Source: Ianthella basta (taxonomy: Eukaryota > Porifera > Demospongiae > Verongiida > Ianthellidae). From it: a stretch of DNA of 64,000 nt. The first letter of the stretch is position 1, and each line of letters opens with the position of its first letter. Both the position numbers and the translations under genes were made by a program. The DNA is taken from positions 6,970,159 to 7,034,158 of the forward strand of contig OZ025868.1 in assembly GCA_964019415.1 (NCBI GenBank), given 5' to 3'. This document shows, piece after piece, positions 3,301 to 48,681 of the stretch. Under the pieces are notes generated by a model. The model did not search any database and was not told the DNA's origin. It worked only from the letters and a program-made list of their open reading frames with translations.

Positions 3301-4204
3301 CGAGATTTGATGAATTCAGATAAGAGGATAGATTGAGGATGGTCTGAGTCCAGAAGGTTGATGTTCAGATCTCCACAGACTACAACATGGTCCCGCAGAG
3401 TGAGAGCATGATCGATCATATCTAGGAGGAACTGAACACTGTTCACACCAAGGCTGGGAGGACAGTAAATGCAACCAACTAGGATCTTAGATGGAACTGA
3501 ACGGGAGTGAACCTCAAGCCAGATTGACTCAACTGAAGATGTTGAGGAGTTATTGCTGATGGAGACCTTCCTGCAAGTAAGAGAGTTGCGTACATAAATG
3601 CAGACACCACCACCATGGCGATGTCGATCAGCTCTGTGGATAGTGAACCCTGGAATGGACAGCATGGAGTCATCAACACTGGAGTCTAACCAGGTTTCGG
3701 ACAAGGCTAAGATGTCAGGGGAGGCAGTTTCGGCAAACTCAGTAACTTGGTCGAGGTGCCGAAAGAGGCTGCGAACATTCAGATGAGTAAATGTGAAGGA
3801 TGGTACTTTGTCACACCTCCTAGAAGGATGCTGGCATCCACAAACAGGACCGGGATTTGTCTCAACATCGCCGCACAGCACTAGCAAGAGGAACCAGGGA
3901 CTGCCAGGTAAGTTCGCTGGAAGGGAGCACCTCCTACGCTCAGGAGAGCAGCGAATATCCACCCGCCGCGGCAAAGACTGAGTACTGGAAGAGAGCGCGA
4001 GAGCTACTGACAACGGTACCTCAAGTTCAGGGGCGAGCAAGACAGGATTGTAGGGATCAGGATGCACTTGGCTTTGCCTGAAATCCTGGAGACAGGATGC
4101 GACCCGCGCAGCAAGAACAAGCAGAGCGACAACAACAACGACTTTCGGACTTTCCGCCATTTTTTCACACGTGATTTGATCAAGTGTGAAAGTGTGTCCT
4201 CTGT

Positions 4205-4262
<58 letters not shown>

Positions 4263-4372
4263 ATGTGTGTATGCGAGTGTGTGGTGTGTGTGTGTACATG
4301 TGTGTATGTGGGTGTGTGGTGTGCGTGTGCATGGTATGTGTACATGTGTGTGCATGTGTGTATGCATGTGTG

Positions 4373-4404
<32 letters not shown>

Positions 4405-4413
4405 CGTGTGCGT

Positions 4414-4464
<51 letters not shown>

Positions 4465-12827: not shown

Positions 12828-12904
12828 GTTCGTTCGACAAAACGATTCGACGCATGGCGAAATTGAAGGAGCTTCAGCCAGTAGGATTCCTCCAACCGTC
12901 TCAA

Positions 12905-13023
12905 CAAGTAAGTTATAACGTGGCCGCTCAGGCGCTTAGCTGATTTATCGCACTCGGGCGCTTTGCGCCCTCGTGTGATAAATCAGCCAGCACCCTCGCG
13001 GCCATGTTATAACTAGTACTTGT
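12905..13023. repeat. Hairpin MITE family, copy 1
   Basis: Arms AACAAGTAAGTTATAAC and GTTATAACTAGTACTTGTT enclose GATTTAT...GGGCGCTTTGCGCCC...ATAAATC. Other copies are at 14380-14495 and 24838-24965. It lies between the recombinase 5' end and the right direct repeat. Confidence 0.85.
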
Positions 13024-14834: not shown

Positions 14835-14942
14835 GGTTGGTAACTTCAATTGTTGTCGCTGCCATCATCTTGCTCATTGCAGTTGCAATGATCATGGCCA
14901 TGATTGCACTGATGCTTAATCATCATATGAAGCATATTAGAG
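14835..14942 (+). CDS. Exon encoding a single transmembrane helix
   Basis: A 108-nt exon between CTCTAG and GTATGT, phase 1 on both sides. It encodes 35 residues starting LVTSIVVAAIILLIAVAM, about 26 hydrophobic residues, then LNHHMKHIR. A phase 1-1 exon with a basic stop-transfer end is typical of modular receptors. Confidence 0.78.
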
Positions 14943-17900
14943 GTATGTTCCCTGCATGTCTTTAGCAGTATTTTGTATGCTTGACTGCGCCGGGTGCATA
15001 ACATTTGTGTCTAGTAATCTAACAGAGTCACTTGCAGTGCATTAATCACCGCAGATGCTTTAAATTTTGTGGGGTTTAATGTTTGCAGCTTTCGCGGATC
15101 AGCAGCCATCCAAAAAAGTTTATTCCGTGAAATTTTAGATGTTACTGCAAGCGTACACAACACAGAGCCAGTAATTGATGATGTCATGCATAGCTAAAAT
15201 GGCGATAATTAATTACAGGACAACCTCGCCTCATGTTAGTTCCTTTGTTGGCCGAGCACTTTGCCGAGGTTCTTGTTTGATCTGTCACCAACGCCTACAT
15301 CCTGTACCGGTCACTACCATCTGTACCTGGCAGTAAGAAGGTACTACTGAAGGACTTCAGAGTGGCCCTTGCTGATCAATTGATCAATATCTACAATGGC
15401 AGGAAAAGGATGGGTTCACCTTCTGTTTCACCAGCTCCTAAAAGGTTCTGCCCGTCGCACTTCCCTTTGAACACACAGGGTAGTTATACCAGGAAACCTG
15501 TACTTTAGGTGAAAGGTGTGGATAACCGCTAAATTCCGTTCATCAACAGTTTCAGAGAGAGAAACTTAGTGATGTCACGAATGACATCACTGATGTCACA
15601 AATGACATCACTAAGTTTCTCCCTCAGAACTTATTAATGAAAGGAATTTAGCGGTTATCCACACCTTTCACCTAAAGTACAGGTTTCCTGGTATAACTAC
15701 CCTGTGTGGGCCTATGTAATGGTGGCGTCATACGGTATGGCCAGAAATTTTGACGGATTGCTGAAATTTCTGTATTTGGCGGAATTTACTTTGGCGGTTT
15801 GGCAAAAAGCCTGTGCCATAATTATATTTATAGCAAAATGGCTAACCCGGACGAACAGTGCTAGATTGCTGAAGAGTCTCTGAGGACTACACGCGCTGTT
15901 GTTTGACCATAACTGGGTTATTTTCACTCCAATCCTTAGCTTTTCGCACGAGTAGTTAAGCCTTCTTTTGGCCGATCTGCTGACGCTCGCCTGCAGCCTG
16001 TGACCTCGCACAAAATTGTACCGCTCCAACGCAGAAACAGAGAACACGCTGTCGAAATCTGCCGCAGTCAGTTACCGACAATGATCTCAACGTCAGTCTT
16101 CACTGCGACCGCATATACGACGCCGTTCGGATTGCCTTTGGCTTCCTCGCGCTCTTCTTCCACCTCCGGTGTGCAAAACTCTTTAGAAACGTAGTGTCCT
16201 TGCGCTGCTGTCATTTGTGAACTCCATGCTGACGATTAATCTATAGACCTGGCGCAACCAGGCTTGTTAAGCGGGAAAAAAAATCTTATGATTGCACAAA
16301 TTTTGGCGGAAGAAATATTGGCGGATTCCTCTCAAAACCGCCAATCCGCCAAAATAAATTCCCCGCCAAAATTTCCGGCCATACGGTAGTGTGTGGGAAA
16401 GAATGTGTTATGGTTTAGTACTAGTGTATAAAAATTACTTTAGAATTAAAAGAGATTTAGGAATGGCCAGCACTAAAAGCGTAGAAACAAGCAACATTAA
16501 CTTAACACCACAATGAACCACATTTCCGTGAAGTTCACTCTGTATTCCTAATTTCTTTGTAGCTACATGGACTCAAATGTCTAGCTAGCTGTCCCATCAC
16601 GGTGTTGAGCTAATGCTGCTTGTTTCTATGCTTTTTCTCTTTTCCTAAACCTCTATTAATTCTAAAGGAATTTTTATACATTAGTTTGTACAGTTTTTGG
16701 ATATCCAAAGGACTATGGCTACATCAGATTAATACTAGCGCTGACTAATACCCCTTCCCTATATTTGTTGAAGATTGGGCAAAGCGTTGAGCACAGTTAT
16801 GCCACTTTAGAAGAGGTGGCCGCCATGTATCATACGGTTTACCAGAGCAACAAAATGACGGCACTGGGGTATCTTTAATACACGGGGATGACAAATTTCC
16901 TGCCCGCTCCAATGCTGTTGTTATTGGATTGCCACCGGCTCTCAGATCCTAGTCCTTGACTTAGGTACGTAAGTCCTCATGCACAATTTAGGTGCATAGG
17001 TGTCCTGCGTCGTGCGCCAAGAGCGCACAAATATTCTGTGGGAAGGAGAATAGTAAGAATATGAAAAGAACAAATGTGGTACGAGCAGCCTATGATGCTA
17101 TTCTCTTATGTGTACTCCAGGTCGCCTTTGGGTGCGCTTGAGTCTTCAATACATCCAAAAAGAAAAACTATCCATGGCCTTTAATTGTTCTTTGCCACCG
17201 TCGTTTGGTTAGTTTTGCTGAAGCGCCCTAATACATTAAGATAAGAGACGCCATTTTGCACCGGGCACATTTCTAAATAGACGTCACAAGCGTGACGTCT
17301 GATATAATAGCTCTCAATTTAGTTGGACTTGCAGATGTAAACTTGTTATAGATGGTAACGTTCAAACAATGGGTGAACTGGAAATTTCGCTTGCAGCGCA
17401 AAGTTGATGCATGTGTATCCTAAATGTATGTTGTTCTTATCTGTTGTATTTGCCTTGGCTACGTACATGATGTGTATATGAACATTTTTGCATTCTACAG
17501 TCAGGCAGGATTATGAACTCCAAGCAAGATCTGTGAGCACAAGTGAAGAGGTTGAACTCCAAGTGAGACGTGTGGGCGTAGGTGAAGAGATTAATCTAGA
17601 CTCGCAGAATGAAGTGAGTGCACCACTGAGAAGGAGGGTTGTGGCACGTCCAGATTCAAAGGATGAAGTGAATGCATCACTGAGCAAAAGAGAATTGTCT
17701 AATACACCCAAAGAAATGAGTATTCTACAAAGCAGAGTGGAGACAGCTAATCCAGATGCAATCACGTCTAGTGTTCAATTATTACTTGGTAAGTAAATTG
17801 GATGGTTGCAAGCATTATACTACAGAGCCAAGATCAGTCACAGCAATTGTACTGTGACTGATGTATTTGGCATGATGTGGACAGATAGCTAGAATTGAAT

Positions 17901-18151
17901 GCAATAAGTGGCTTTATGCATGCACTGACAATGTGAAATGATGTAGCTGTTGTAAAGGCATTCAAAGAGCTGTATAGCTAATTGGTAAAAAGGAAGCAAA
18001 GAGGAGTCTAGCTATATATAGGTGGAAACAAGTATTTCGAGTTAAAAACTCGTGGGGCTACCGCCCCAACTCGAAATACTTGCTCCCTTCGGTCGCAGCT
18101 CTGTCACACAATAGGTAAACATGACATCGTGTCATAATACCTCAGTAACCT

Positions 18152-18236
<85 letters not shown>

Positions 18237-24200: not shown

Positions 24201-27200
24201 AGTAACTCTACACTACCCGACCATTAATATGGTTGGGTTTTGAATATCTATGGTGCCACTGTAGTTTTAGTCATGGAAAAGGGCGCAAAAAGCTTAAGCT
24301 TCATCTTATTGGAAGCACTGAGCAAACTGATTACTGGCGTTCTACCGTACTACAGCTATCGATTCGACGAAATTTGTGTGTCGATGGGTGGCTGATTCTT
24401 CTGCACGAGAGGACCCGGTCGGAAAGACATCTCAAGTATGTAGCTAGATACCGAACGAACATAGACTCTCAGATCACGGTCAGTTCCAACGCAGCTGATC
24501 ACCGATCCGTCGTGCTGTCCCACCGTCAGATTCCTCTGAGCTAGCTTGGCTCCCTCCGCCTCCAATGCTGTCGGGCGCACCTTCCACCGACCACGATTAA
24601 CCAGCCAAGTCTTGTTGGCGCCTTCGATCGCGTTGCAGGAGCGGGCAAGACGTCTCCTCCGTAGAGGAAGAGGTTTCCGGAGGTGTAGTGTACCGACGTT
24701 TCTGCCTTGGCTCCTTGCTAGCTAGCTCTCATAATGAATAAAAATGCATTGGATTCGCCCACGCTCCCCTAATTATATTCTTATTTGGCAAGAAACCAAT
24801 TAACATTTGCCCACGCTTCCCTTTGTTCAGCAAATAAATCACTTATAACACCTCCTTTTCGGGATGTCGCTGATTTATAAGCACTCCCCCCTCGGGCGCT
24901 TCGCGCCCTCAGGCCTCGTGCTTATAAATCAGCGACATCCCTCAAGGAGGTGTTATAACTAATACCTAAATCTGAAAACAATATAGGGGCACCAAAGCCC
25001 AAAAAATTGAAGAGTGCTGCACCATATAGTACTACACTCCTGCATGTAGGGGCAATGGTGAATGCTCCACTGTGTAGTAGCATTTCCTAGTTTCTGTACT
25101 TTTTATGCCAGCCATACGTCTTTAGTAGTTTTTGTAGAAATTTTTTATTCTTTCTAGTTTCTGCACTTTTTGCAGCGTAAGCTCAGATATGATACATTAC
25201 CACTACCACAGGACAGCAGTGCATGTATATGTTTTTATTCTGGAGTGGAACCGAAGTGGCAGCTAGAACCTAAACTCTGCACTAACTCAGAAACGTCCAC
25301 TGGAAGCTAATGGCTGCCTTCTGGCACACCACAGTGAATTTCCTTCTAAATGGCACGCTGGCTATCGTTGGCCGAAGCTTGTCCCATATGCTCATGCGAA
25401 CACTCATTTGACCGCATTGTGGGGCTATCGGCCTAAAACTTCATTTAAAAGAGACTATTCACTAAGCGACCAACCGTGGTACATGGGATTATGTCATTGT
25501 AAAATGGCGTCTTACCCCTAGCAACGTCTCACAAAACTGGGCAACCTCCCATTTGTGGACTGGATCGCAGAGCCATCTAACCTACAAAAGGCACTTACCT
25601 AGCGAAAGCCTCATAGAACTATGTGTAATATATCCTCCTACTCCTTATCGTTCGGGAGCTATAGCTGATGGAGTAGTAGAAGAAGAAGAAGAAGAAGACA
25701 AAACAAGGGAAAAGGCGATGACGATTTCTACACGACAGCACCCTGGCACTTGGAAGTATGGCTAGCTCTGTAAACTGTACAGCCTCCTTTCCTCGCTGGC
25801 GGCTCCTTTAGTCAGTTCTTGGTTCTGTTCAGGAGTAGCGCTACTTTTCGTTTGTATTACAGCAAACTAACAACCACGACCACCCCTACATAGACAGCAC
25901 TACCGTGTTGTCTGATAAGTGAAGCTACGGGTGTACACCAATGCTTACATTTGTATTGAATGTATTGGGTGAAGTATTGGGTATAAGGTATTTATATTGT
26001 ACAGAATTTTATTCTGCCGGAAGTGGACCGTGTGCAATACCAAGGGATTTGCAAAACCGCCTTCCAAACATCGTCTTTGTGAACTTTGGACGTCCTCTTC
26101 CGCCGCTAATTGTGGAACAGACTCCTACAGCACTCCTTGTCGACGGGCACAGAGTCCAACAGGTCATCCCTGCGTCTTCTTTTGTAATGGCCTCCCCGCC
26201 TTGGAGGCCTTCACTCCACCCCCTGAAACATATGACAGGGTAACGTAGAAACTAATGATCGCCGTGATTTGTACACACTAACATTTTTCAAACCCATGTA
26301 GCGTTGAAAAGCTCAGCGCACACAATTGCCCTTCTAAATGCTCTTGAGAACCTCGTCCCCGCTTGCTGCGCTGTAGCAAAATATGTAAGTAGCTTTTGGC
26401 ATCATAGAACACTAGCTACTGTGGCGACTGTGGGTTCCTTGGTACATTAAGTTTCTACTAATACTGTGTGTCTGTCTTTGCTGGAGCTGCAGCCCCACAA
26501 GTTTTTTAATTCGAAATACTTGTCTTCATTCTTTGTGGCTGCACAGATATATGTGCAACCCCCTAGTCACTTACAACTTGGTAGCATGGTAGTAGGATGT
26601 AGTACACAGCCGGTTTCACTGCCCGTACACAGCTCCGGTTTTAGTCGATTTTCTATGACGGCCATTTTTTCGAATTAATCTCCCTTCCTGCCTTAAATGC
26701 TCATGTGAGTGCGCTGAACCAGTTTGCAGGGCCATGTGATAGAGGGAGTGGGTTCTTGAATCTTATCTCCTATGTGTAATTGCTAAATTGTCTTGTCATG
26801 GCATCACATTTGTTTCTTATCACCTATGCTGTAGTGCGGCCAACTCATGATGAAACACATGCTCCTCATGAAACAATTTCTGCTTTGGACCTGGCTGTAA
26901 ATGTACCCATGTTTACAAATCCTGCTTATGAGGGCATCCCCAGATTGGCACCTAATTTAGCTGATGTCAGCATGACAAGGAATCCTGCCTATGTGTCAGC
27001 CCAGCCTCACCGCCGAGACTATATGACCTCCCATCAAGACTACCTCACTGAGCCAAGTCCTGCCAAGTCACGGCCACTACCTTGCCCACCTGAGATAGAG
27101 ATGAAACGTAAACAGAGACAAATGCAGAACGAGATACCACCAACATCACTTCCTCTACCAGTGCCAATGAAGTCGACCAGCATTGTACCCAGCAGTGATG

Positions 27201-30200
27201 ATGCTTTGTGCGTGGATGAGGCTGTGGTTGTGCCATTCAACACAGTTGCCCACCCTGATAAGGTGTGTACAGTAATTTACATAGTTCCTGTAGATAGTGG
27301 TCACATTATGGTCAAACTGCTGCAATAGAATGCCCCTGTTTGGCAATCACACTGCATGTTGCGTGTGATTAGCATCACTGTGGCACTGACAGCCATGGTG
27401 ACGATGATGATGGCGGCTGTAGATGGTGGCAGTAAGTGAATGCTATGGTAGAGTGTGGCATAATGAGGGCAACAGCCATACATGACCAAAGTGGTGTATT
27501 GATGCTTTGGAAGCTGGTAAGTATTTGTTTTGAGCTGATTACTGAAAGAATGGGAGCAGATGCAACCATAAGACAATATTTTTCAAGGTCCTACAGTCTC
27601 TGCCTGCTAATATTACTGGAAGATGCAAAAATGACATGTCAGTTACTTGCAAGGGTGCATTTATGGGGGAGAAGGAAGGGCCTTCTTGCTGCGATCTCAC
27701 CCCCCCTTGAAAGTTTGGCAAGCTATATGTTAATATATAGTATACCGTTACCAAGGAAACCATGTTTTCTCAGGCTTATACCGTATGGTCGGAAATTCTG
27801 GCGGGGAATTTATTTTGGTGGATTGACGGTTTTGAGAGCAATCCGCCAATATTTCATCCACCAAAATTTGTGCGATCATATAGTTTTCCGCTTAACAAGC
27901 CTGGTTGCGCCAGGCCTATAGATTAATCGGCAGTGAAATGATGTGACGTCGTCAGACTCCGGACGCACGCACACCTCAGGCGGGGAACCCGACCGTCCCA
28001 GAGACACAACACGATAACAGACGATCACGCGGGAACCGGTAACTCACTTCACGGTACCAACACAAGCACGAGGCCAATCATCAACTGAGCATGCGCACAC
28101 ACCGTATAAAACTTACATGCATAATGTAAGATGACGAAATACACATGAATCAAGGTGAGCAATAGCAAATGACCAATACCACACACATGCTTAACCACAA
28201 ATCAGACGTATACACTACAGGCAGCTTTAAGTTCACAACTGACAGCAGTGCGAGGACACCACAAACTCAAAGAGTTTTGCACACCGGAGGTGGAAGAAGA
28301 GTGTGAGGAATGCCAAAGGCAATCCGAACGGCGTCGTATATGCAGTCGCTGTGAAGACTGACGTTGATATCATTGTCAGTAACTTACTGCGGAAGATTTC
28401 GGCAGCCTGTTCTCTGTTTCTGCGTTGGAGCGCTACAATTGTGTGCGAGTCACAGGCTTGGGGCGAGCGTCAGCAGATCAGCCAAAAGGAGGCTTAAAAG
28501 CCTTTGTACGTTGCAGCATTCCCTGGAAAAGCTAAGGATTGGAATGAAAATAATCCAATTATGGTCAAACAACAGCGCGTGTACTCATCAGAGACTCTTC
28601 AGCAATCTAGCTCTGATCATTCGGATTAGCCATTTTGCTATGAATATCATTATGGCACAGGCTTTGCCAAACCGCCAAAGTAAATTCCGCCAAATACAGA
28701 AATTTCAGCAATCCGCCAAAATAAATTCCCGCCAAAATTTCCGGCCATACGGTATTTCCTATTTGCACGTTTTCTTGCTATTGGTATATGTATAACATAT
28801 AGTACGGTAGGGAGGTCTATCGCTGATATATAGGACCAGTGTAAATATAAGCGCCTAAGTCCTATATAGATCCCGTTACCATGGTAACAGGCATTCTAAG
28901 CGCCGTTTCTAGAACTCATAGACTTTCTCTTGTATTTCGCGCGGGATCTAAATCATTTAGATACCGGGTGTCTAAATCCCGTAGATCCCTGCAGCTGTGA
29001 TAACAATTGTTGCGCCATAACATACGATACGATGCGCAGGTCGCCCGGCTTACTTGTTTCGTTGATAAATAGGGTAGAGCAACAATCCGGCTACGAACCA
29101 GAGCCAAGGAATTGGAAATACAGCTAGTTACAAGCTACGCGGGGAACAGGCTTTGGTAGCTACGTACACGGCTCTGGGAAACGCTGTGGCTGACGTGGCT
29201 GACAGTGAGTAAGCTTATGCTTAGCTGACGTGCCGCATCCACTGCCGACCTGTAAGAAACGTCAGCTGCGAGATGAACAACCCAACTTTAGACCCGAATC
29301 ACACGACGTTTTCTCCGCCATTGAGGAGTAGCTAACTACTTCCGGTAGACACGTGATGTCAAAGCTCCCATACATGATAAAAATTGCCCCTCTACTTCTG
29401 ATTCCACATCGAAGACAGTCTTCCTTCTTAAAAGAAGCATTTTCCAGACCCATCGTGCAGCACCCTGTCACGACCACAACCGAAACTGCTGACTGTGCAT
29501 TATTTTGAACTCAGTTACCTGTCAACTCACTGGTCAACATGCTGCCAAAAGGTGTGCAGTATTCTCATTAGTCAGCCTATTGTGACGTCACACAGGCGTC
29601 TACTTAACACTGAGTGTGCTGGCTAAAAGGCTACCGTAAGTGGTAATGCGATTGTCTCTCATTGGCCAACAGGTTGTTCGACCCTGTTGTATTTGGGGCT
29701 GTACCTCGCATGAGAAGGGTTGGGTAAGCTTTCTACTACAATACTATCACTTAAGTAGGTTCTAGAAAGTCTTTGCATTCTTAGGATACAGGACGAAATA
29801 GAAAGATGATTTTGAGCCTACCACACAGAGAGCAATGAGCGCAGTCATGTTACAATGTTCGTCTGTGATAATTGGAGCTGTACCTCACAGAAGAATCTTT
29901 TTACGAGTATCACTCTATTAACACATGTTTATGAACAAATTTTGTTGGATTGAAAGAAGGCGAAACAGCATTAGAGATGATTTTAAGCTTTGTAAAGAAC
30001 GACGTGAGTGCTGCCATTTGCAATGACAGAAATATAATATTATACGATGTAATCCACCTAATTCAAATCTGTGTGGAGCACAAAGTGAGTTTGATTTATC
30101 AGGTTTTTTGACTTACGAGAATCCCTATTAATTCAAAGTTTATAAGCCGTTAAATCACAAATTCCGATTAACAGGAATTGAACACAGCCAATGGATGTAA

Positions 30201-33200: not shown

Positions 33201-36200
33201 ACTCGTTCACAGAAACGATTTTCCGCTATCGCTGCCATAGGAATCTGCCCAACGTAATGCTCTACACAATGAAGAAATTCGCTTCTGGATCGGTTGAGAC
33301 GCGTCATATTAGATAGGTCAGCAACACCTTTGCCTCACGCACTAAAGTGCAAGAGCAAGCACCCTTGAAGGCTTGGCGCCTATTGGCTGTGCTCAGCTCT
33401 AGGAACTATATACATGAAACAGATTCACGTGCCTTTCTAGCTTCTCGGTCAACGCGATCACCTACGCGAGGCCGACATTCTTCTGGGAAACGTCGAGTCC
33501 AATGAATCGCGGTTTTCACACCTCACCTCACACCTAATCTCACACCTGACACCCTGTTACGCAATGCGTGTTTGTTTATACCGTTATACATAACAAAAAT
33601 TCGTTTACATTCTTGCTGTGCGCAAAACAGCTGATCATTACAGTTCAGTGCTCTAGCAGGCGTATCCCAAGCTTCAGCGGTAGAGTTTAATAGCTTGGGA
33701 AATGCCTGCCTGAACCAGTAGTAGCTACGGCAAACAGTGCGCGATGCCAAAAATGAAGAGTGCAAAGAGACGAGCTCACCTCACGGACATCAGCACCCAC
33801 GGTCACGATACGCGTGGAGTAGGCCTAGACAGCAGACCGTCGGTTGACTTCGAACTCCCCTCGGGTTGGACTACCGATGAATGACGAGTTGGCTCTGAAA
33901 TTCGGACTGGCTATCGTTCTCCCACCGGACGATACTTCGCGAGCAGGAAGGCGGTTCTGGAATTCATCGCTGGCCCTGAAATGACGGCAATCGAAGCGGA
34001 CACTCCATCAATGGACGAATCTGGGTCTGAATACTTACCCACGCCAAGAAAAGGCCGTCGCCTCCAAGCAATACTCGAAGAATCTACAACCAGTATTGAA
34101 GGGCAGCCAGAGCAGCTTGAAAACTGCCTTTTTTTCACGGAGTTGAGAGCTTTCACGACGTTTATAGAAGAGTTGTGTGCACAGAGGAAGTGTACCACTG
34201 AGGGCTGCAATGGTAGTCTTAGGCCTGTGTCGGTGGACAGAACAGGTCTTGGTGGAGGTGCTCAAATCAAGTTATGCTGTGATGGATGCACATTGAGCAA
34301 TCTCCGCTTCAATACCTCCACATTGGTCCAGGAGTCACGGCGACAGGTGGCAGTCCTATCTGTAGCACTTGCCTTCCTGCTCACTGGTCACATGCACTCT
34401 GGCTACCACAAGGCGTTGGGCCGTGGCCTAGGCATACCAGTACTCCGGCGCAAGAATGTGTACATCATTTTGAAGGATGCCTATCCGTACATTGAAAGGA
34501 TGCTGAAGGATATGTGTAAGCAAGCGAAAGAAGACATGAAGGCACTACCAGTAGAAGATTTCGGAAGCTGGCAAAATGCAGTTACAACGGCAGATGGGTG
34601 CTGGCTCACTCGGGGACACTTTAGCCAGAACTTCACATTCATAGTGAAGAACTATTTGAAGAACACCATCTTGTTCTACGGCCATGCTTGTATGCAGGGT
34701 AATGATGATGTCATTGATGAGCCCTTGTACCCTGGTACATCGAAGTCTGCAGAAGGGTACCTGGCTGAGAAGCTGTTTCAACAGGCGAAGGATGAAGGGT
34801 GTCGAGTTGCAGTGAACTGGCAGGACAGTGATTCTTCATCGGTGAAATCAGTCACATCCGTGTTTCCATCTGCACAGGTCATGTACTGTGCGGGTCACGT
34901 TGGACGTGCACATTCAAACCAACTAAATGACCTAAAAGGAAAGAAAGTGTTCACCAAGACCTTCATTGACAAGTACATCCAGGTACATCCAACTGTCTCT
35001 ACTGTCACCTGCTGCTGCGCAAAGGGAAAGCACAAGGCTGGCTGTGGGTGCATCACGGAAGGGTTTATTCGAAATGCCAGAATCTGCCATTTTCTCGTTT
35101 GCATCCAGTCTGAGAAAGACCCCAACATCTACGCCCAGCGGATGAGGGAACTTGGGAGATACCATGCTCGGGGCATCCACAGCTGGGAAGGTGGCCAACG
35201 TTCCTTCCACCCCTCTGTCATCTGTTCCTGTGGTCAATGTGATGACGTGGACAACCTCTGCTGTGTGGGAAAGCCATATGAAAGCAAGTATGTCCTCTCG
35301 TGTGAGTTGCACTCACTAGGGTATGAGATCGAATGCGAGAGGAGGGCTTCAATGGCAGAAAGTGTAATCCACTCAGTAATGGGTCGTGGCCATTCTAACC
35401 TTTGCGAAGCAGCCTTCAATGTTTTGCCCCGATTCCGGGCAAAGAATCTTGCTCTGCACAGGCTCTCCTAAATGGCTCTCACCATTTGGGGACTGATCAT
35501 GAGTTGTGGTGACACGGATGATGTTTCTCCATATGTTACCTTGTACAGCGAGATGGGGCTGCCTATACTTGATGGTATGGCAGACATTTGGAGGGCAGAC
35601 AGGGAAGAAAGAGCCAAGGTGCTTGGGAAGGAGAAGACTGAAGAGGTGAAGAAGTACAGACTTCAAATGAAGACTGCACGTGTGGATGAGCAGCAAGAGC
35701 GGAAGCAGTGGGCCAAGCGACAGCAGATCTTGCACAGTTATGGCAACCAGGAAGAGGAACTCGAGCCTGCAGACGACCAAGCTGACCCTGTGGAAAGTGA
35801 TGATGCCCTGTATGCACTCGTTGGTGGCGAGTCCAGCACAGAGGGTAACGATGAAGGGGACTTGCTTGTTTTGGGGCACACAGCTGGAGTTGATCGCCCT
35901 GCAATGCAGACTTCACGAAAAGGGAAAGAAAAGAAGCCGTGCAAGTGTGGATCTACTTCGCATTCACGTGTGTCATTTCATGGGTGCCCTCTGTATAAGA
36001 AGTAAAACATATCTAGCTATGCATGATGCTCTTTGCCTGTTTTTCAGACTGATTTCACTGTTTGTTTCTTGACAACACAACAATTACATTTGTGATGATT
36101 TCTCAACTATCCAATATTTCACATTTCATTTAAATTTGTATAGTACATCATTTGCATTGTACATGAAGGTGTGCATGTGCTACATTTGTGTATTTTAGTT

Positions 36201-39200
36201 TTAAAAGAATTACTGCTTTGAGAAAATGAAAATTTGGAATGTAACGCAATAGGCAACTAGCTATAGATTGAATAAGTACCACTGACTATAAAGAAGTCAG
36301 TGCTTTCGCCCGCGCCTAGAAGACTGCTTACGCACCGTAGAGGGTGATGAGGTCTTTACTGCAGGCCACTTAGCCTGGACAAGATCTTGGAAAGTTACTT
36401 CGTATACCTGTATGTGTACGAATAGATGTATACACTCATCTGATTTATATACAGCATAATAATTTTATACACGTATATATATATACAGGTGCACGTGTAC
36501 CGAACTTCCCGTGGGGTCAGGACTTTCCTCCGCAGTTAGCTCATCCGGGAAGCGTGCCCTGATCACTGCTTTCAGTGCCTCAGGAAAGATGTAAGTTGGC
36601 GCGCTTCCTTCAAAATGGCCAGCTCCGACGTGTGCGCCGTACTGAAGTGAAAAACAAGAACGCACACTGTGGACTCAAACACAGCTGTCGCGAATCATGC
36701 ATCACACACCCATAAGATGCCGTAAATGCGCCGGTACAGCTTGGAACGTCCTGCTCTCCCACTTTCCTCTCCGTATCCTGCCCGTAGCAAGGTTATTAGG
36801 GCCGGTGGAGCGTTCTCGCAGCTGTAGTGGCAGAAATCATTCTCGGTAGATGAATTATGCCGTTCTGCCACAATTATATAAGAGACGCTCACCCGTTGTC
36901 CACAAATTTAGCCTCTAGAACAGCGAGGCTTTCTTCTACTGTCATCCTGGCTGCCATTTCCCTTGTCTTTGTCAGCAATTACCATTTGGACCATTAATTA
37001 ATCGAGTAACACTTGGAGTTCGACACAATTTTCACTATTTTCTTTCTTCTATAACTCGCGCAAGCTAATACCGTCGGGCACAAAACTTTGGAAAAGTAAA
37101 TCAGACCCATAACTCTACCTCTGTACCAAAAATTGTGCAGGTTTGATTTCGTCACTTTAGCCGTACCTACTACCTTAAGTGTTGATTGTCAAATAGTATA
37201 TGATGTAATCAACATGCTGCAACTCACTCCCAGCAGTCCTGTCTGCCCCCCATGCTTCTTGCTGATTTACATGGAAAAATGACTAAGTACAATCACCTGT
37301 TGCCATGGCAGCAAGTACTCGATATCTCTTATTTTCCCCTGTATCCCTTTGTGTAGCTGCCAGATGTGTCTCTATTGTATTCCTCCATTCTCCCTTATGC
37401 GCAACCCTCGAAATCACAAGTTGTTTTAATGTTGATTGTCAATGTATTCTACAGTAAGATGCATAGAAGACATTGCTTTATCCAAAACAGTTTAGGTTAT
37501 TGTTGTTTAATGCTAATTAAAGAATGGTGAACCACTAAACGTTAAAGCTAGCGAGTAACGGTTAGCTAGTTACTTAAGGATATCAATAATTGTAGGTGGA
37601 GCTTAGTGTTCAGACAGGTAAGAATGGCCTAATCAGTGTACATATTGGAAGCAGCAGATCACACAACTGTAACCCCCCTTTCACATGCGCAACTTAAACC
37701 GGTTTTATTGAACCGGTTTCGACCCGGTTTCGCAACATCGCGTTCACATGAGCAAGGAGCTCGGGCCACGCGGCGTACGATGACGTTAAGTTTTCGATTA
37801 AAGCATGGCTACCGTGGATTGGCAAAGTGCGGGTTTGTTGTTGTTCAGCTTATTCTGGGTGTGGCGAAGACGGAGACAACGAGGAATCGCTGCTAATGCC
37901 AGAACAAAGGCTTCAAGAAGACGAATGAAAGCTTTTCTTCGCTATCAAGCGAACGTTGCGCTCCTTGCGCTGTTTGTTTGTTGGCGGCATTTGTCATTCA
38001 CTGCAAGACAGAGGAGGATGCTGTGGATGAAAGTAAGAAGTCAGTCGTTCTTTGCCAACATTGTTATGCACTGGGATGACGTTGAGTGGAAGCGAAACTT
38101 CAGAATCGGCAAGCCTACCTTTCGTTTCCTTTGCACGCAACTCCGTTCAACTCTTCTGCGTAGGAATGTAGTTCGACGACAGTTATCTGTGGAGGAAAGA
38201 GTTGCTATTACCTTGTGGAGGTTGGGGACCAACATTGAGTACAGATCAATTGCACATTTATTTGGTGTGAGTTTGTCAACCGTATGTGTGGTCGTCCATG
38301 AAGTCTGTGCTGTGATAATGAACACCCTCTCTTCAAGGTACATCAGGATTCCTACAGGTGAAGATGCTCGAACTGTTGTAGATGTTTTTTTACGCACCTG
38401 GGGCTTCCCACAATGTTTTGGGGCGATTGACGGCAGCCACATCCCAATCATAGCACCATCAACTGATCCCTTGGACTACTACAACCGTAAGGGCTTCCAC
38501 TCCATCGTACTTCAAGCCCTTGTTGACCATGAATACAAGCTCATGAACATTTTCATCGGCTGGCCAGGAAGCTGTCACGATGCACGCATTTTGGCTAATT
38601 CTAGTATATTTGCCAAGGCGGAAGAAGGCAGTCTCCTGCCAACTACAACAGAGAACATCAGTGGAGTTGCTGTGCCAGTAGTAATTCTTGGTGACCCTGC
38701 CTACCCTTTGTTGCCTTGGTTGATTAAGCCTTACTCTTCTGTGGGCCAATTGACAAGGGAACAAAGGTGTTTCAAAGGTGTTTCAATTACCACCTTAGCA
38801 GGGCAACAAGTGGTAGTGGAATGTGCCTTTGGTTGTCTCAGAGGACGTTGGAGGTGTCTCTTAAAGCGGAATGATACCAAGCTGTCCTTCATGCCTACAC
38901 TGGTTACAGCTTGCTGTATCTTGCACAACTTGTGTGAGGTGCATAGTGATGGATTTAATGAGGACTGGATGTGTGAGGAAGATGAAATTGACAATACGGC
39001 TTCCAATCCTCATCCATCAAATGCATCTACTGTCACATCGGCAGAGAACATTCGGGCAGCTCTATGTAGGTACTTTGCATGAATGAACTAGTTGATGCTG
39101 TCACAGCTATATGCCATACAATTACACTTCGTCATATTATGTATTCAATCAGCACAACTTTATTGAAGTTATAATTATCATGTTCAGGTGAAAAGTGAAT

Positions 39201-45200: not shown

Positions 45201-48200
45201 TGACGTCACATGGATGTTTGAGGTTAGGCGTATATGGCAATCTAAAACTCTCTATTTGTAAGTTCCTTTGCAAAGGCATCACCTGAGTACTTAAGCAATT
45301 CTCCTGGTACTCCATCCATTTCTGTAGCACGTTGATTGCGTAATCTTCCCAGTGCTGACCTAACTTCTTCCAATATTGGCTGATCTAGTAGACCTGGATT
45401 ACGGATGGATTACAATCCTTGAGTATTTACAGGAGCAAATAGTCCCTTGAACCACTGAGATATTCTGTTTGTACAGGCTACAGGGCTAGCTATTATTTGA
45501 CCTTTTTCATCATGTACTATTAGCTTAGGTTGGAGTTTGCGTCTCATCAGTCGGGTTGCATGAAACATTCTAATAGAGTCCTTTGTTTACTCTACTTCTT
45601 CTCTACTTCTCTAATTCTGTACTTGCAGCCTGGGAGGCAAGCTTCTCTATGGTGACAGTCATTGCTCTCTTTCGTATACAGTGTAGTACTTTGTTATGTT
45701 GTTGCTTCAGTTCCTTTGCCTTAGTGGTGTCTTTGGTCTCATTTATCTGGAGCCTAAGGTCTTCTTGTTTTGACAGGGCGCACCGTGGTAAATGTAAGCA
45801 CCTCGGTCGTATATTTCGGCTATGGACCTCCCTACCGTACTATGGAGTATACATATACGAACATGAAACCATACGATTACCGAAAAGTGAAGAAAATATA
45901 GGGCATTAGCGGCATTATAAGAGAGCATTGATCGCAGGTTAGTTCTGCACTATTGCTTTCAGTTGACTTTATACTTACATATTTTCTTTAACAGTTTAAA
46001 GAATTGCAATCCATCGTGAAGAATATAACGTTTCAAGTGTGAAATTTCAATGTAATTTGAGCATGAAAATGTGTTTTTCCTCATTTTTCTTCATAATAGA
46101 TGGTATTTCTTCAAACCACTTTTGAGATTATGTTACTTTACCATGTTCTGCACCTTATATAGCCACTGATTTGTGTCTAAGACAGCTCGATGTAATGCCA
46201 TTTTTAGTTGAAAGTTGCCAAGTAGGTGCTATATTTCTTCCTCGAACAGATTGTCAATTGATTGGTTGTTTTTCTTGTAAAGCAATGAACGTACTTTACT
46301 ATTTACTTAGTCAAACTTTGTACAAACATACACAGAATGAGACCATAAAGTTTAAAACGGTGCAAACAGCGGCCATATTATAGGTTTTCAGTTATACTAC
46401 CCTGTGGGGTAAGAGAGGGCAAATGACAAAAAGTGTTCAACAAGAGACGAAATTATCATAATATTTTCTATGCACCATACCATATCAACCAAACCTCTTG
46501 TATGGGATGACTCAGCATGATTTGGGATAATGCGTACTGGCCAAAACTAGAAAGTCAGTTAACAGAATATTGACGTTGGTGCCCAACTACCACTATCTTT
46601 TCATGTCATTAGTGTTATTGCATTCGTTCTCTTACACAGATTCACAGACTCTGTGTATGGCTGCTGGGTCACTAAAGAGGCTAAAGTTGAAAGTGCTGCA
46701 GCAAAGTATTTTTGAAGCACTGGCTGAGGTATTTAACCACAATTCACTGGAAGAATTGGACCTTACGTTGGGGAGTGACAGCAAGGTAGACTAGTAGTGT
46801 ACTACTGTATGGCCAGAATTTGTCTTGATGATGGTAGGCTTGATAGGTTTTGATAGGTTCATTGCTGCGTAAGTGTACTGGTGGTGGAGAGTTATTAAGC
46901 GTAATTGCAGCGACTGGATTTAATGATCAATTAAACACTTTCCAGTATGTTTTGGTCTGAGGACCTTTCTCAACTGGTACAAATATGCTTTTGTTTATTG
47001 TATCTGTCAAGAAAGGCCCTCCTAAACATTTGTGTGTTGTACCAGTTGAGAAAGGTCCTTGGACCAAAACATCCTGGAAATTGATCGTAAATCCTGTCAT
47101 TGTGATTATACTCAATAACTCTCTCTCCATACCATTTATTTTGATGATTCACAGATTGGTACTTGGCAGATTTTATATAGTTTGGCGATTTGGCAATGCT
47201 GTACGTAGTTGGATTATGTAAACACGTTTATAGTTGGAAATGTGGCATACTGTCTTCAAACTGCCAGTCTGGTGAAATTAATTCCCCACCTAAGTTTCCT
47301 GCCATTCAGTACGTGCATCCATTCAGTTTGTGTGCATGTGTTGTGAGCACCAATTGTGCAGTTACCACCATCACATCACTGCACCTCTGTGCTTATCCTG
47401 ATGCAAAGTTGTGCCTTTGGTGCTTCAAGTGCAATAATCTGCTCCTAATTGGCATGAAATAGGCTTAGCTGACAGAAATTGAATTTGGATTTTAAGTATG
47501 CCACCCCTACCTGCAAGGGCAGTCTTAAGGTGTTCTGCACTGGCTTTGTCAAATGTACGTACTCTGTGCTATCTTTATTGTATATTTGTTTACATGCAGG
47601 GTGACAGTGCAATGCTAGAGGACATGGTTGCCCATTGCTTTCTAAGGAAACTGCTTTTACTGGGATCTAGCACTGGGCTCTTACCTGTCCTCAGTGGACT
47701 GAGGGATAACTCCTCTGTTACAGATTTGGTTCTCGGTGAGCCCGTCACTATGCATTCTTGCAATTGAGTTTGGTTATTATTCTTGCAATGTTAATGACAG
47801 ATTCAAAGACCATGTACAATTTAACACTGTGCATCTGCCCTTTAGATGACTCCTCAAGCAGCATGGCGACTTCCATAGCTGCGGCCACATGTGTTCAGAG
47901 CATGCCACAGTTGAGAGTGCTTCAAATCAGTGGGATCAGCCCTCTTCCAGTACTCCAGTCACTATCACACAGAGGCTCACCCCTAGATACCGTCACAGTA
48001 TTGATGCCTCAGTTGGTATGTCAATTGCCTATCTTGCATGGCTTGTCAAGATTTGGAATAGTATCTTATCTTCACAATGTACATACTTGCATGCGCATTC
48101 CAAAGTACATACAGTTCCTGTACAGTTCTGTCTTAGCCAGTTTTCACTGTAATTGTAGTTATGGTGTTGGAAGCTGCAAGGAATGTGGAATTTATTATGT

Positions 48201-48681
48201 CGTTACTGGAAACCCATGTACTATCGCAATACATTGGCTAGCATATACATTGACTCTTGTTGAAGCTCATGCTAAGTTCTTCGATGTACATTTTGTTGGG
48301 CTTTACCCGTAGATGCTGCAAATAGCCAACCATCACTTCTGACTGTTGTTGAGCAGCCATTTGTGTCCACCTGCAACGTATTCCCTGAATAGTGTGATGT
48401 TTAGTCTTGTATGGTGTCACCTCATTACCCGTATGGTTATTTTGTATGTACAGGAGGAACTGAGTGAAGTACAGTTGGAAGAGGCAGCTAGTTGCGCTCA
48501 AGTAGTCAACGTGACAATAGATGTGATGGGAAGTTCTGGAGCCAGCAGAGCCCTGGCTGTTGGCTTCAGTAAGAACCCACTACTCACCGAAGTGGAACTG
48601 AGAATGGTACCAAAGGAGTTAGTGGAGTCCATAAGAGGAACACTGTGCACAAACACAGCATTAACTGTGAAGATATTGTAA
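14835..48681 (+). CDS. Transmembrane NACHT-LRR receptor (NLR-like), 5' end not found
   Basis: Eight exons join without phase conflict: 14835-14942 (TM helix), 17501-17788, 26835-27262 (linker/tail), 31001-32690 (NACHT), 46640-46785, 47600-47735, 47846-48015 and 48454-48681 (LRRs, TAA stop). Successive intron phases are 1, 1, 0, 1, 0, 1, 0. The visible product is about 1,060 residues: a single hydrophobic helix followed by His/Lys/Arg, which puts the rest in the cytoplasm; a roughly 240-residue linker with two NPAY motifs; a NACHT ATPase; then LRRs. NACHT-LRR proteins are innate sensors that oligomerise on ATP exchange, and they are normally soluble. The first exon seen starts in phase 1, so upstream (extracellular) exons must exist or have been lost. 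Introns are loaded with transposons. It could instead be two genes, but the frames agree at every junction. Confidence 0.75.
15472..15709. repeat. Foldback MITE
   Basis: Termini CACACAGGGTAGTTATACC and the exact reverse complement. Arms of about 65 bp are nearly perfect, and the centre holds further TGATGTCA/TGACATCA palindromes. It sits in the intron after the TM exon. Confidence 0.88.
15730..16388. mobile_element. MITE family with ATACGGTATGGCC termini, copy 1
   Basis: Starts ATACGGTATGGCCAGAAA and ends TTTCCGGCCATACGGTA; the inner arms carry many GGCGGATT/CCGCCAA words. The core (about 15980-16190) is shared with the inverted copy at 27778-28754. No transposase. Confidence 0.82.
16419..16685. 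repeat. Foldback MITE
   Basis: Arms ACTAGTGTATAAAAATTACT and AATTTTTATACATTAGT, continuing through TTAGAATTAA and TTAATTCTAA. It lies a few bases after the preceding MITE, making three inverted-repeat elements in 1.2 kb. Confidence 0.8.
17501..17788 (+). CDS. Cytoplasmic linker exon 1 of the TM-NLR
   Basis: A 288-nt exon (CATTCTACAG acceptor, GTAAGT donor), phase 1-1. It encodes 95 hydrophilic, Glu/Ser/Arg-rich residues starting RQDYELQARSVSTSEEVELQ, with a heptad-like spacing that could form a short coiled coil. No known domain. Confidence 0.72.
18026..19013 (-). mobile_element. 1-kb repeat carrying captured gene exons, copy A
   Basis: Inverted relative to copy C at 53668-54722. It runs from the CGAAATACTTG hairpin through a CA microsatellite (18154-18236) and a degraded coding-like region (ATG near 18623 on the minus strand) to the AGGGGCTGCCTGCGGCAGC hairpin. 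The two-exon reading frame intact in copy C is broken here. Confidence 0.72.
18154..18236. repeat. CA microsatellite
   Basis: Pure CA run of about 80 bp, with a second run at 18258-18280. Confidence 0.97.
19014..21004. other. No gene recognised; intron of the TM-NLR model
   Basis: Short open frames only. 20715-20850 is an inverted, diverged relative of 55345-55615 (CGCAATAGTTT words and a GGTGGTGCGAAACC stretch). Confidence 0.5.
21009..21638. mobile_element. TTAA-flanked (piggyBac-like) MITE
   Basis: TTAA at 21005-21008 and 21639-21642. Termini CTCATTAGGACCAATTTCG and, reversed, CCCATTAGGGCCATAGACG. Same style as 7206-7841. Confidence 0.65.
21643..23490. other. No gene recognised
   Basis: Intronic if the TM-NLR model holds. 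Only short, unrelated open frames. Confidence 0.45.
23493..23930 (+). repeat. Interspersed repeat family, copy 1
   Basis: Starts with an AT-rich hairpin (AATACATGTAACAATTT with its complement) and continues with sequence shared with 29700-30050 and partly 57270-57540 (AACACATGTTCATGAACA; GAACGACGTGAGCGCCGCC). Ends in an ATAC microsatellite. Confidence 0.7.
24025..24110 (+). repeat. Short tandem repeat, about 21-bp unit
   Basis: Three to four copies of a unit close to AGCGATTATATCTTATTGG. Confidence 0.85.
24838..24965. repeat. Hairpin MITE family, copy 3
   Basis: CTTATAACACCTCC ... GGGCGCTTCGCGCCC ... GAGGTGTTATAACTAA. Arms pair almost perfectly through GATGTCGCTGATTTATAAG. Confidence 0.85.
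25010..25175 (+). repeat. Repeat shared in inverted form with 63645-63860
   Basis: Shares TGCATGTAGGG, a GTGAATGCTC/GTTAATGCTC motif and TTTCTGTACTTTTTATGCC with the end of the window in opposite orientation. Confidence 0.6.
25925..26522 (+). mobile_element. 1-kb repeat carrying captured gene exons, copy B
   Basis: Matches copy C at 53790-54722 without the left hairpin and without the long GT microsatellite. The captured start region at 26187 is frame-shifted (MASPPWRPS...). Ends at the GCAGCCCCACAAG...CGAAATACTTG hairpin. Confidence 0.7.
26835..27262 (+). CDS. Cytoplasmic linker exon 2 with NPAY motifs
   Basis: A 428-nt exon after a strong pyrimidine tract ending GTAG; donor GTGTGT; phase 1 in, 0 out. 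It encodes 142 residues with FTNPAYEGI and MTRNPAYVSA (NPxY, the PTB-domain or endocytosis signal), tyrosines in DYMTS and DYLTEP, and RPLPCPP (SH3/WW-like). These are features of a signalling tail and support a membrane receptor. It ends AHPDK, joining in frame to VVYLALPEP of the NACHT exon. Confidence 0.75.
27263..27777. other. Intron start, no gene recognised
   Basis: A long open frame starts here (27436) but it runs into the MITE at 27778 and has no recognisable motif. Confidence 0.5.
27778..28754. mobile_element. MITE family with ATACGGTATGGCC termini, copy 2
   Basis: Inverted and longer relative to 15730-16388: starts ACCGTATGGTCGGAAATTC and ends AAATTTCCGGCCATACGGTA. The shared core includes a TTTTGCACACCGGAGGTGG block. 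Confidence 0.82.
28755..29699. other. No gene recognised
   Basis: Intronic in the TM-NLR model. Contains short palindromes (GGATCTAAATC and GATTTAGACACC-like arms near 28950). Confidence 0.45.
29700..30044 (+). repeat. Interspersed repeat family, copy 2
   Basis: Follows 23560-23920 in order: CTTTCTACTA, TTCTAGAAA, GAGAGCAATGAGCGCAG, AACACATGTTTATGAACA, AGAACGACGTGAG. Confidence 0.7.
30045..30508. mobile_element. TA-flanked MITE (Tc1/mariner-like)
   Basis: TA at both borders; termini CGATGTAATCCACCTAATTC and, reversed, CAGTGTAGTCCACCTAATC. No transposase. It interrupts the end of the neighbouring repeat copy. Confidence 0.7.
30520..30595 (+). repeat. Copy of the AATATAGGGGC terminal repeat
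   Basis: ATGAAACCATACAAAAAC, then GAAAACAACATAGGGGC and a GGCGCCCC arm. Confidence 0.65.
31001..32690 (+). CDS. NACHT ATPase exon of the TM-NLR
   Basis: A 1,690-nt exon (CCCTGCAG acceptor; AAG|GTGAGT donor), phase 0 in, 1 out. NACHT motifs: Walker A GQPGIGKTTF (exon residues 89-98), Walker B VLIIFDGADE (167-176) and sensor STRPGG (206-211). The following 350 residues match the helical and winged-helix part of NLRs, and the last 60 begin the LRRs (LAELDLTSSHYLSP, LQSLSLAV). The exon starts with an in-frame GTG codon, not a real start; the protein continues from the exon ending at 27262. All key ATPase residues are present, so the gene looks functional. Confidence 0.92.
33744..36005 (+). pseudogene. 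Kolobok transposase with N-terminal MBD-like domain (two in-frame stops)
   Basis: One frame runs from ATG 33744 to TAA 36003-36005 (about 753 codons), broken only by TGA at 33882-33884 and TAA at 35469-35471. The N-terminus has ELPSGWTTDE, then YRSPTGRYFASRKAVLEFI. This is the pattern of a methyl-CpG-binding domain (LPPGW ... YYSPSGKKFRSK ... L). The first stop falls inside it. The transposase core (from about 34200) has zinc-binding-like cysteines, TADGCWLTRGH and NWQDSDSSS (likely catalytic Asp positions), VMYCAGHVGRAH, and a CCCAKGKHKAGCGC cluster. The last part has a charged coiled-coil-like stretch and ends CKCGSTSHSRVSFHGCPLYKK, a zinc knuckle common in this family. The MBD call is by pattern only. 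Confidence 0.75.
36006..37174. other. Non-coding 3' part of the Kolobok element
   Basis: No gene recognised. It is AT-rich after the stop and ends in the terminal inverted repeat. Confidence 0.6.
37805..39082 (+). CDS. Harbinger DDE transposase (HARBI1-like)
   Basis: A 425-residue intact ORF. The DDE_Tnp_4 catalytic residues are present: Asp209 in GAIDGSHIPI, Asp297 in ILGDPAYPLLPW and Glu339 in VECAFGCLRGRW. HDAR and ILHNLC are also conserved. An HTH-like segment (RSIAHLFGVSLSTVCVVVHEV, about residues 147-167) precedes the nuclease. It needs the Myb-like partner encoded on the other strand for DNA binding and nuclear entry. No stops, so possibly still functional. Confidence 0.93.
   Translation: MATVDWQSAGLLLFSLFWVWRRRRQRGIAANARTKASRRRMKAFLRYQANVALLALFVCWRHLSFTARQRRMLWMKVRSQSFFANIVMHWDDVEWKRNFRIGKPTFRFLCTQLRSTLLRRNVVRRQLSVEERVAITLWRLGTNIEYRSIAHLFGVSLSTVCVVVHEVCAVIMNTLSSRYIRIPTGEDARTVVDVFLRTWGFPQCFGAIDGSHIPIIAPSTDPLDYYNRKGFHSIVLQALVDHEYKLMNIFIGWPGSCHDARILANSSIFAKAEEGSLLPTTTENISGVAVPVVILGDPAYPLLPWLIKPYSSVGQLTREQRCFKGVSITTLAGQQVVVECAFGCLRGRWRCLLKRNDTKLSFMPTLVTACCILHNLCEVHSDGFNEDWMCEEDEIDNTASNPHPSNASTVTSAENIRAALCRYFA
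39258..40331 (-). pseudogene. Harbinger Myb/trihelix-like DNA-binding protein, one in-frame stop
   Basis: From ATG 40331: MAERGKTWIEAETAKLIEAW, with conserved Trp spacing and VKQCQDKIKSLKRSYK, is a SANT/trihelix domain (residues about 4-95). Then comes an acidic Ser/Thr linker with three near-identical GRQTPSSLQPSSRVQ-type repeats. A TAG at 39588-39590 falls in a basic stretch (SKK, stop, KRKVSK, probably the nuclear signal). The same frame then stays open to 39258 with a charged coiled coil (LDEQRNDFVQLERERMKHEE). The product would be truncated, so the element probably needs a partner from elsewhere. Confidence 0.85.
40850..41380 (+). pseudogene. ISL2EU transposase remnant
   Basis: Reads WPSKEKVKAKAPESFRRYPN, then TRIVMDCSEFYIQRPSSLQ (first catalytic Asp), FSNYKHHNAFKVLVGISPGG, and, after a frame change near 41090, LEPGDNVMADRGFDMGD (second Asp). 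The end reads FPITVANLSSDIHNNVINF in another frame. At least two frameshifts; the N-terminus is lost. Confidence 0.8.
41440..43713 (-). pseudogene. ISL2EU YqaJ nuclease protein (SAP, SWIM, YqaJ), split
   Basis: Segments in order on the minus strand: 43713-43357 with a SAP-like domain (LTMQRLKFLCKETAMKCSGV...IIGRLISSWKK); 43406-42756 with a SWIM zinc finger (CNCVARKGEACSH); 42690-42432 with RNGRITSSFIGEM; then, beyond the MITE, 42026-41690 with WGTEKEFLARNAYV and the nuclease motif GLLEIKCPYS; a frame change leads to NYCYQVQAELAI, the usual next YqaJ motif. Removing the MITE and one copy of its TAA restores TNILI-MGYTQMTG in frame. Several further frame breaks make it non-functional. Confidence 0.82.
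42029..42428. mobile_element. Harbinger-type MITE inside the YqaJ gene
   Basis: TAA duplicated at 42026-42028 and 42429-42431. Termini GCCCCGTTTACACTAGC and, reversed, GCCCCGTTCACACTAGCG, after an extra TA on the left. It contains AAACCGGTTT words like those near the ends of the Harbinger element at 37673-40480. Confidence 0.85.
44190..45790 (-). mobile_element. LINE fragment (endonuclease-RT linker and RT N-terminal half)
   Basis: On the minus strand it reads SKQEDLRLQINETKDTTKAK (linker), ISQWFKGLFAPVN, RATEMDGVPGELLKYSG, then, across a MITE, LLIPLPKPGKSSGLPAHLRP and LSPSQSGFRKGRSTSDV. The catalytic RT half is absent. Clade not assigned; it is distinct from the LINE at 0.7-4.2 kb. Confidence 0.8.
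44549..45252. mobile_element. TA-flanked MITE inside the LINE fragment
   Basis: Termini GAGAGTTTTAGATTGCC, perfect for 17 bp, with TA at 44547-44548 and 45253-45254. Removing it with one TA restores the LINE frame (AFAKELTNILNKALTSG). The open frame inside has no recognisable motif. Confidence 0.85.
45791..45915 (+). repeat. Copy of the AATATAGGGGC terminal repeat
   Basis: CGAACATGAAACCATACG, then GTGAAGAAAATATAGGGC. It abuts the 5' end of the LINE fragment. Confidence 0.6.
45916..46639. other. Intron, no gene recognised
   Basis: AT-rich; only short open frames before the LRR exon. Confidence 0.5.
46640..46785 (+). CDS. LRR exon 1
   Basis: 146 nt, phase 1 in, 0 out. It encodes SLKRLKLKVLQQ and NSLEELDLTLGSDSK, two leucine-rich strands. 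The upstream intron of 13.9 kb holds Kolobok, Harbinger, ISL2EU and LINE insertions. Confidence 0.8.
47600..47735 (+). CDS. LRR exon 2
   Basis: 136 nt (ACATGCAG acceptor, GTGAGC donor), phase 0 in, 1 out. Encodes FLRKLLLLGSSTGLLPVLSG and NSSVTDLVL, one LRR unit. Confidence 0.8.
47846..48015 (+). CDS. LRR exon 3
   Basis: 170 nt (CCCTTTAG acceptor, GTATGT donor), phase 1 in, 0 out. Encodes MPQLRVLQISGISPLPVLQ and PLDTVTVLMPQL. Confidence 0.8.
48454..48681 (+). CDS. Last LRR exon with stop
   Basis: 228 nt after TATGTACAG, phase 0, ending TAA at 48679-48681. Encodes VVNVTIDVMGSSGASRALAV and LLTEVELRMVP, then a short C-terminus. A possible AATAAA lies near 49678; no closer poly(A) signal was seen. 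Confidence 0.8.
   Translation, partial: EELSEVQLEEAASCAQVVNVTIDVMGSSGASRALAVGFSKNPLLTEVELRMVPKELVESIRGTLCTNTALTVKIL

Follow-up and report, generated by a model that had tools for sequence, protein, structure and literature searches.

NLRs are regarded as cytosolic sensors, and the premise of a preliminary description of this locus, that they are normally soluble, is right. Membrane-bound versions have, however, been published. In the sponges Amphimedon queenslandica and Dysidea avara, NACHT-LRR genes with predicted transmembrane (TM) domains have been termed "putative membrane-bound NLRs" (PMC12909245, citing Yuen et al. 2014); TM-containing NLRs of anthozoans (sea anemone) have been proposed to be membrane-bound (PMC5094078); and AjNLRC4 of the sea cucumber Apostichopus japonicus reportedly lies on the cell membrane, binds microbes, and oligomerises (PMC8699970). 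The preliminary description had presented a receptor-type NLR as a different way of wiring an innate sensor. A membrane-spanning frame was indeed found, but with membrane NLRs already in print (PMC12909245, PMC5094078, PMC8699970) the idea is less new than that first reading supposed. Membrane NLRs as such being known, what is new here, judging from the predicted frame, is an unusually complete Ig-stalk-TM-NPxY-NACHT-LRR gene structure.

The window, i.e., the whole stretch of DNA that was analyzed, comprises 64,000 nucleotides from Ianthella basta (C1:6970159-7034158, in a genome of 209 Mb and 96 contigs). All eight plus-strand exons reported earlier are present within it, each flanked by AG/GT splice sites, and the phases across their seven introns (1,1,0,1,0,1,0) were identical on re-reading. 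The ectodomain exons had been described as missing. Within the window none is found: a coding-potential scan for such exons, a method that misses short ones, recovered none, and a survey by eye of the ORFs at 4.6 to 14.8 kb of the window yielded nothing resembling a domain. Three exons lie in the 8 kb directly upstream (L055), however, coding for a signal peptide, an Ig-like domain, and a stalk, each with a phase-1 donor matching the requirement of the TM exon. Taken together, the upstream stretch and the window give 11 exons that join into one frame of 1,205 residues, from ATG to TAA, with all intron phases in agreement.

The frame runs on the plus strand as follows. Exon 1 (C1:6965200-6965260, L055:3042-3102; residues 1 to 21) is a hydrophobic N-terminal exon with the ATG, fitting a putative signal peptide. 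It is followed by exon 2, the Ig-like ectodomain (C1:6966181-6966480, L055:4023-4322; residues 21 to 121), and exon 3, a Ser/Thr/Pro stalk (C1:6969899-6969961, L055:7741-7803; residues 121 to 142). The first exon inside the window, exon 4 (14835-14942; residues 142 to 178; phase 1-1), codes for the TM helix recognized by hydropathy, exon 5 (17501-17788; residues 178 to 274) for a cytoplasmic linker, and exon 6 (26835-27262; residues 274 to 416), which has a phase-0 donor, for the cytoplasmic tail with its NPxY motifs. Exon 7 (31001-32690; residues 417 to 980) comprises the NACHT domain, the helical domains that follow it, and the first LRR-like repeats. The four remaining exons, LRR1 (exon 8, 46640-46785), LRR2 (exon 9, 47600-47735), LRR3 (exon 10, 47846-48015), and LRR4 (exon 11, 48454-48681), are LRR-like by eye and make up the LRR from residue 980 on; the last supplies the C terminus and the TAA stop.

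The intron between stalk and TM exons measures about 15 kb and that between NACHT and LRR1 13.9 kb, and transposon genes recognized by Pfam lie in introns of the receptor gene. These are a LINE-like endonuclease and reverse transcriptase (window 996-4490, minus strand), a DUF3504/QRICH1/phage-integrase recombinase (11190-12932, minus strand), and a DDE_Tnp_4 transposase (37802-39079, plus strand). A plus-strand open frame of 528 codons in the NACHT-LRR1 intron (33885-35468) has no Pfam match; presumably it too is a transposase, of the KDZ sort by its looks.

A second copy of the gene is found upstream at C1:6892349-6926271 (copy B, the gene described above being copy A), offset by about 73 kb at the first exon and 79 kb at the tail exon. 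It retains 10 of the 11 exons (seven of the eight in the window) in the same order and with identical phases, including exons 1 to 3, all in phase 1. Five exons differ in length from their counterparts in copy A (by -6, -108, +6, +33, and -3 nt, all multiples of 3); the -108 is that of the linker exon, whose 180 nt in copy B keep the same phases. The NACHT-LRR1 intron of copy B is just 306 bp, against the 13.9 kb of copy A that transposon genes occupy. For that intron, this largely answers the worry, raised in the preliminary description, that long introns weaken the single-gene reading; no parallel check applies to the 15-kb intron between stalk and TM. With the upstream exons beginning at an ATG, the 1,205-codon frame, and a duplicate of the same structure in its 10 observed exons, the earlier claim of a single membrane-spanning gene is now much stronger. 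The sequence supports a type I receptor frame with an intact NACHT domain inside, and we propose that this is probably a single-pass type I cell-surface NLR of the order SP-Ig-stalk-TM-linker-tail-NACHT-LRR, encoded by one gene that occurs as a tandem pair.

The putative membrane helix reaches a best 19-residue hydropathy of 3.26 and is the one predicted TM helix after the signal peptide. By criteria fixed after the exon had been seen (phase 1-1, strong donor, pyrimidine tract, and hydropathy of at least 3), the plus strand of the window has no other candidate. The same post hoc criteria returned none on the window's minus strand, none in 30 simulated 64-kb sequences, none on the two strands of the 50-kb copy-B region, as far as it is covered, and none on the single strand tested of a related region on C10 and of two other stretches. 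A search of the whole genome with the TM and linker exons gave three matches, all within the two copies. The TM exon itself was not found in the part of copy B that is covered, which says nothing either way; with copy B covered only in part, we rejected this absence as evidence against the gene.

The assignment of exon 2 to the Ig fold is a tentative one, of modest confidence. Its structure model has a pLDDT of 57.6, and the structure search points to an Ig fold, with no Foldseek match at E≤0.001. Pfam gave no match for the exon, and by sequence its best Ig-type match in the PDB, a single-domain antibody, is weak at E=0.18 and 0.024. The exon is 68 to 72% identical in three other records (P0089 to P0091), where the flanking read-through differs. 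Elsewhere on the same contig, at C1:6.355-6.742 Mb, the Ig exon has twelve relatives, all of them exons on the plus strand (E≤3e-4, 27 to 41% identity). These may constitute a receptor cluster and a source of the ectodomain; for one member (L056), no TM segment or tail was recognized by eye in the roughly 3 kb downstream (2.6 kb for the TM segment).

The claim of an NPxY-bearing tail is borne out: exon 6 has two NPAY motifs, at residues 302 (FTNPAY) and 323 (RNPAY) of the joined protein, as well as an RPLPCPP stretch. NPxY motifs bind PTB adaptors and are of the endocytic type, FxNPxY driving uptake. Between the two copies the tail exon is 75% identical; the second NPAY is conserved in copy B, where the first is NPAH, and in a more distant relative on C10, which has two NPxY motifs like copy A. 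This relative comprises an Ig-like exon (C10:4782498-4782749, 50% identity) and an NPxY-tail exon (C10:4740808-4741008, 42%), both on the minus strand and 41 kb apart.

The NACHT domain is intact, as had been stated: exon 7 matches Pfam NACHT at E=2.3e-23 and contains the segments GQPGIGKTT and LIIFDGADE, which we take to be Walker A and Walker B, respectively. Foldseek matches its AlphaFold2 model (pLDDT 81.4) best to NOD2 (E=1.1e-17), with NLRP3 and NLRC4 among the further matches. The downstream exons are LRR-like by eye, with periodic LxxLxL motifs, and the NACHT exon model terminates in alternating strands and helices, but no Pfam LRR passes the cutoff, the best LRR-type rows being R13L1/DRL21 LRRs (E=0.084) and LRR_4 (E=1.1). 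No Pfam effector domain (CARD, PYD, DEATH, or BIR) was found in residues 1 to 185 or in the tail; the place of the usual N-terminal effector domain is taken by the SP-Ig-stalk-TM-linker-tail part. NLRs that have none of these effector domains are classed as NLRX (PMC12909245), so the missing domain is no bar to membership in the family.

Outside this genome, the nearest proteins to the NACHT exon are two unnamed ones, P0003 (72%) and P0004 (60%). Within it, at least 102 NACHT matches were scored from 469 first-look candidates, an expanded set of the sort that fits a sponge. Two of them (C10:325952-326407 and C10:1316189-1316644) lie within very long open frames (2,224 and 3,877 codons), compared with 349 to 722 codons for the other 100. 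At least 76 other matches are 70 to 82% identical to the NACHT exon itself (77 scored including itself). These NACHT-LRR paralogues are mostly on C17 and C19 and share the phase-0 acceptor region; for those most closely related, the last 300 bp of the preceding intron are homologous as well.

Comparison of the two copies gives evidence of constraint on several parts of the protein. The dN/dS ratio is 0.41 for the Ig exon (Fisher p=0.02) and 0.32 for the NACHT exon (p=4e-21), and the pooled LRR1 to LRR4 exons give p=2e-4; by this measure, all three are under purifying selection. For the tail the indication is suggestive only (0.62, p=0.075, not significant alone; Ig and tail together, p=0.011). 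The signal peptide gives 0.63 on 18 codons, and the linker (1.43) and stalk (1.52) bear no sign of constraint.

The NACHT exons of the two copies (window 31001-32690 in A, C1:6921371-6923093 in B) are, at 78.5% DNA identity, less alike than each is to an NLR elsewhere: among 29 paralogues compared, the exon of A reaches 86.6% identity with L010 and that of B 86.4% with L034 and L035, all on C19 and all with a CARD-like exon. Synonymous divergence is correspondingly uneven. The dS of NACHT (0.575) is roughly triple the values for the Ig (0.16) and tail (0.21) exons, with LRR2 (0.475) and LRR1 (0.30) also above LRR3 (0.17) and LRR4 (0.06; 97% amino acid identity). In windows of 150 bases, A is in some equally near to B and L010 (for example, 89% each) and in others far less near to B than to L010 (66% versus 86%). 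The simplest reading is that the NACHT region was likely converted from other NLRs after the duplication, a sequence-level case that looks as if a membrane NLR and other NLRs had exchanged NACHT exons.

Taking these findings together, we propose that phase-0 splicing might have linked an Ig-type receptor gene to an NLR body, a body that elsewhere in the genome bears other N-terminal exons. The Ig domain would bind a microbial or self ligand outside the cell; receptor clustering would then gather the cytosolic NACHT domains, otherwise held in check by the LRR, and promote nucleotide exchange and oligomerisation beneath the membrane. The NPxY motifs could recruit PTB adaptors that set internalisation and signalling. 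A bolder version, in which the Ig ligand directly drives NACHT oligomerisation in the manner of a receptor kinase, and gene conversion re-arms a constant receptor with changing NLR bodies, we regard as somewhat unlikely.

It is also quite possible, though we would hold to it only tentatively, that the receptor is real but that its membrane and tail part only positions an ordinary, cytosol-facing NLR on the plasma membrane or on endosomes, with the LRR rather than the Ig domain as the sensor. The NACHT body is conserved like that of the genome's other NLRs, the NPxY motifs are of the endocytic type, and linker and stalk evolve freely, all of which favors this reading. Against it, the Ig exon is 88% identical in amino acids between the copies, with no indel and a dN of 0.066, the lowest of all exons after LRR4, and it is conserved in the three other records mentioned above.

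An alternative to the gene itself is that two neighboring genes were duplicated as a block, the first encoding an Ig receptor that terminates with the NPxY tail, the second, downstream of it, an independent NACHT-LRR protein. Since both copies derive from one duplication, their shared order is also expected under this scenario, as order would survive duplication alone. A stop codon lies at most 22 codons past the tail donor in both C1 copies. Beyond the donor, their read-through differs in 7 of 17 residues (10 of 51 bases), after which come an indel and different stops. This lower conservation favors a single gene, but 10 of 17 residues are still alike, and over so few codons the difference from the 75% identity of the tail is not decisive. 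On C10, the relative of the tail reads into an in-frame stop directly after its donor-like site, so that a protein-ending tail is possible there. The only NACHT domain nearby, 17 kb on and on the same strand, is a different one (27% identity across 355 aligned columns), and the intervening sequence has ORFs resembling transposon genes by eye. Even so, the C10 tail may belong to a third membrane NLR of the Ig-TM-NACHT kind.

Relatives of the NACHT exon do have 5' exons of their own, a CARD-like one (so recognized by eye; Pfam and PDB searches gave no support for this identity) lying within 1.5 kb upstream in 6 of 29 paralogues. This CARD-like exon is absent from the window, from the copy-B region as covered, and from both tail-NACHT intervals. 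In copy B, the 5' sequence of paralogues aligns with the final 350 bp of the interval; in copy A, paralogue matches likewise fall near its end, just before NACHT, except for 69 bp about 1 kb ahead of the exon that match, at 75%, the upstream region of a C17 NLR (L051) and favor the two-gene scenario. The preliminary description had named a NACHT exon with its own upstream start as the case to be looked for. Seven short phase-0 ATG-to-donor frames in the copy A interval, which could be chance frames, speak for it; against it, the NACHT exon has no start codon or methionine before residue 79, no CARD-like exon precedes it, and the last 267 bp of the intron contain no ATG-bearing frame with a phase-0 donor. 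The phase-0 donor of the tail and the phase-0 acceptor of NACHT are kept in both C1 copies. Neither copy has an AATAAA or ATTAAA within 700 bp of this donor, a weak point because copy A equally has none within 1 kb of its final stop. On balance, we consider two separate genes improbable and retain the single receptor-type gene.

Finally, a decaying or nonfunctional fusion left by duplication and transposon insertion, which the long introns holding transposon genes and the dN/dS above 1 of stalk and linker might suggest, is very improbable in view of the constraint on Ig, NACHT, and LRR and of the 11 exons of copy A and 10 of copy B, in which there is no stop or frameshift.

The single gene would illustrate how NACHT machinery could sit directly behind a surface receptor, which is relevant to an animal without adaptive immunity, and the tandem pair offers a test case in which the same receptor part is linked to different NACHT exons. 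A homology search for TM-NACHT-LRR proteins, as the preliminary description had suggested, gave with the full-length protein two matches among the best 7,988 candidates scored, both vertebrate NLRC5. No Ig-TM-NPxY-NACHT-LRR protein appears in literature listings or in the relevant passages of PMC12909245, PMC13133943, PMC8699970, PMC8455134, and PMC5094078. The sponge NLRs come from the same phylum, and an Ig-TM-NLR among them is possible; the pertinent passages describe neither an Ig-stalk-TM-NPxY order nor the gene structure nor any tandem copy (PMC12909245). The anthozoan NLRs differ in having three to five N-terminal TM segments, with no receptor-type single-pass plan in the portions describing them (PMC5094078).

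The database gene model LOC144492602 of the shark Mustelus asterias (P0076) combines Ig, NACHT, and LRR domains by Pfam, and its Ig part is followed by a segment that looks TM-like by eye. It differs in having a Pfam CARD too and, by eye, a further Ig-like segment after the TM-like one; a profile comparison of our Ig exon with its Ig gave no match, and it is possibly a fusion error of the gene model. AjNLR-new of A. japonicus is also a membrane protein with Ig, TM, and NACHT, in the reversed topology, with NACHT outside and Ig inside (PMC13133943). AjNLRC4, compared by description only, belongs to a separate lineage and has two Ig domains, two TM segments, and no LRR, and NPxY does not occur in the text that describes it (PMC8699970). 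Like the predicted sponge receptor, however, it has Ig outside, a TM helix, and NACHT inside (PMC8699970), and we count this comparable wiring in favor of the explanation proposed here.
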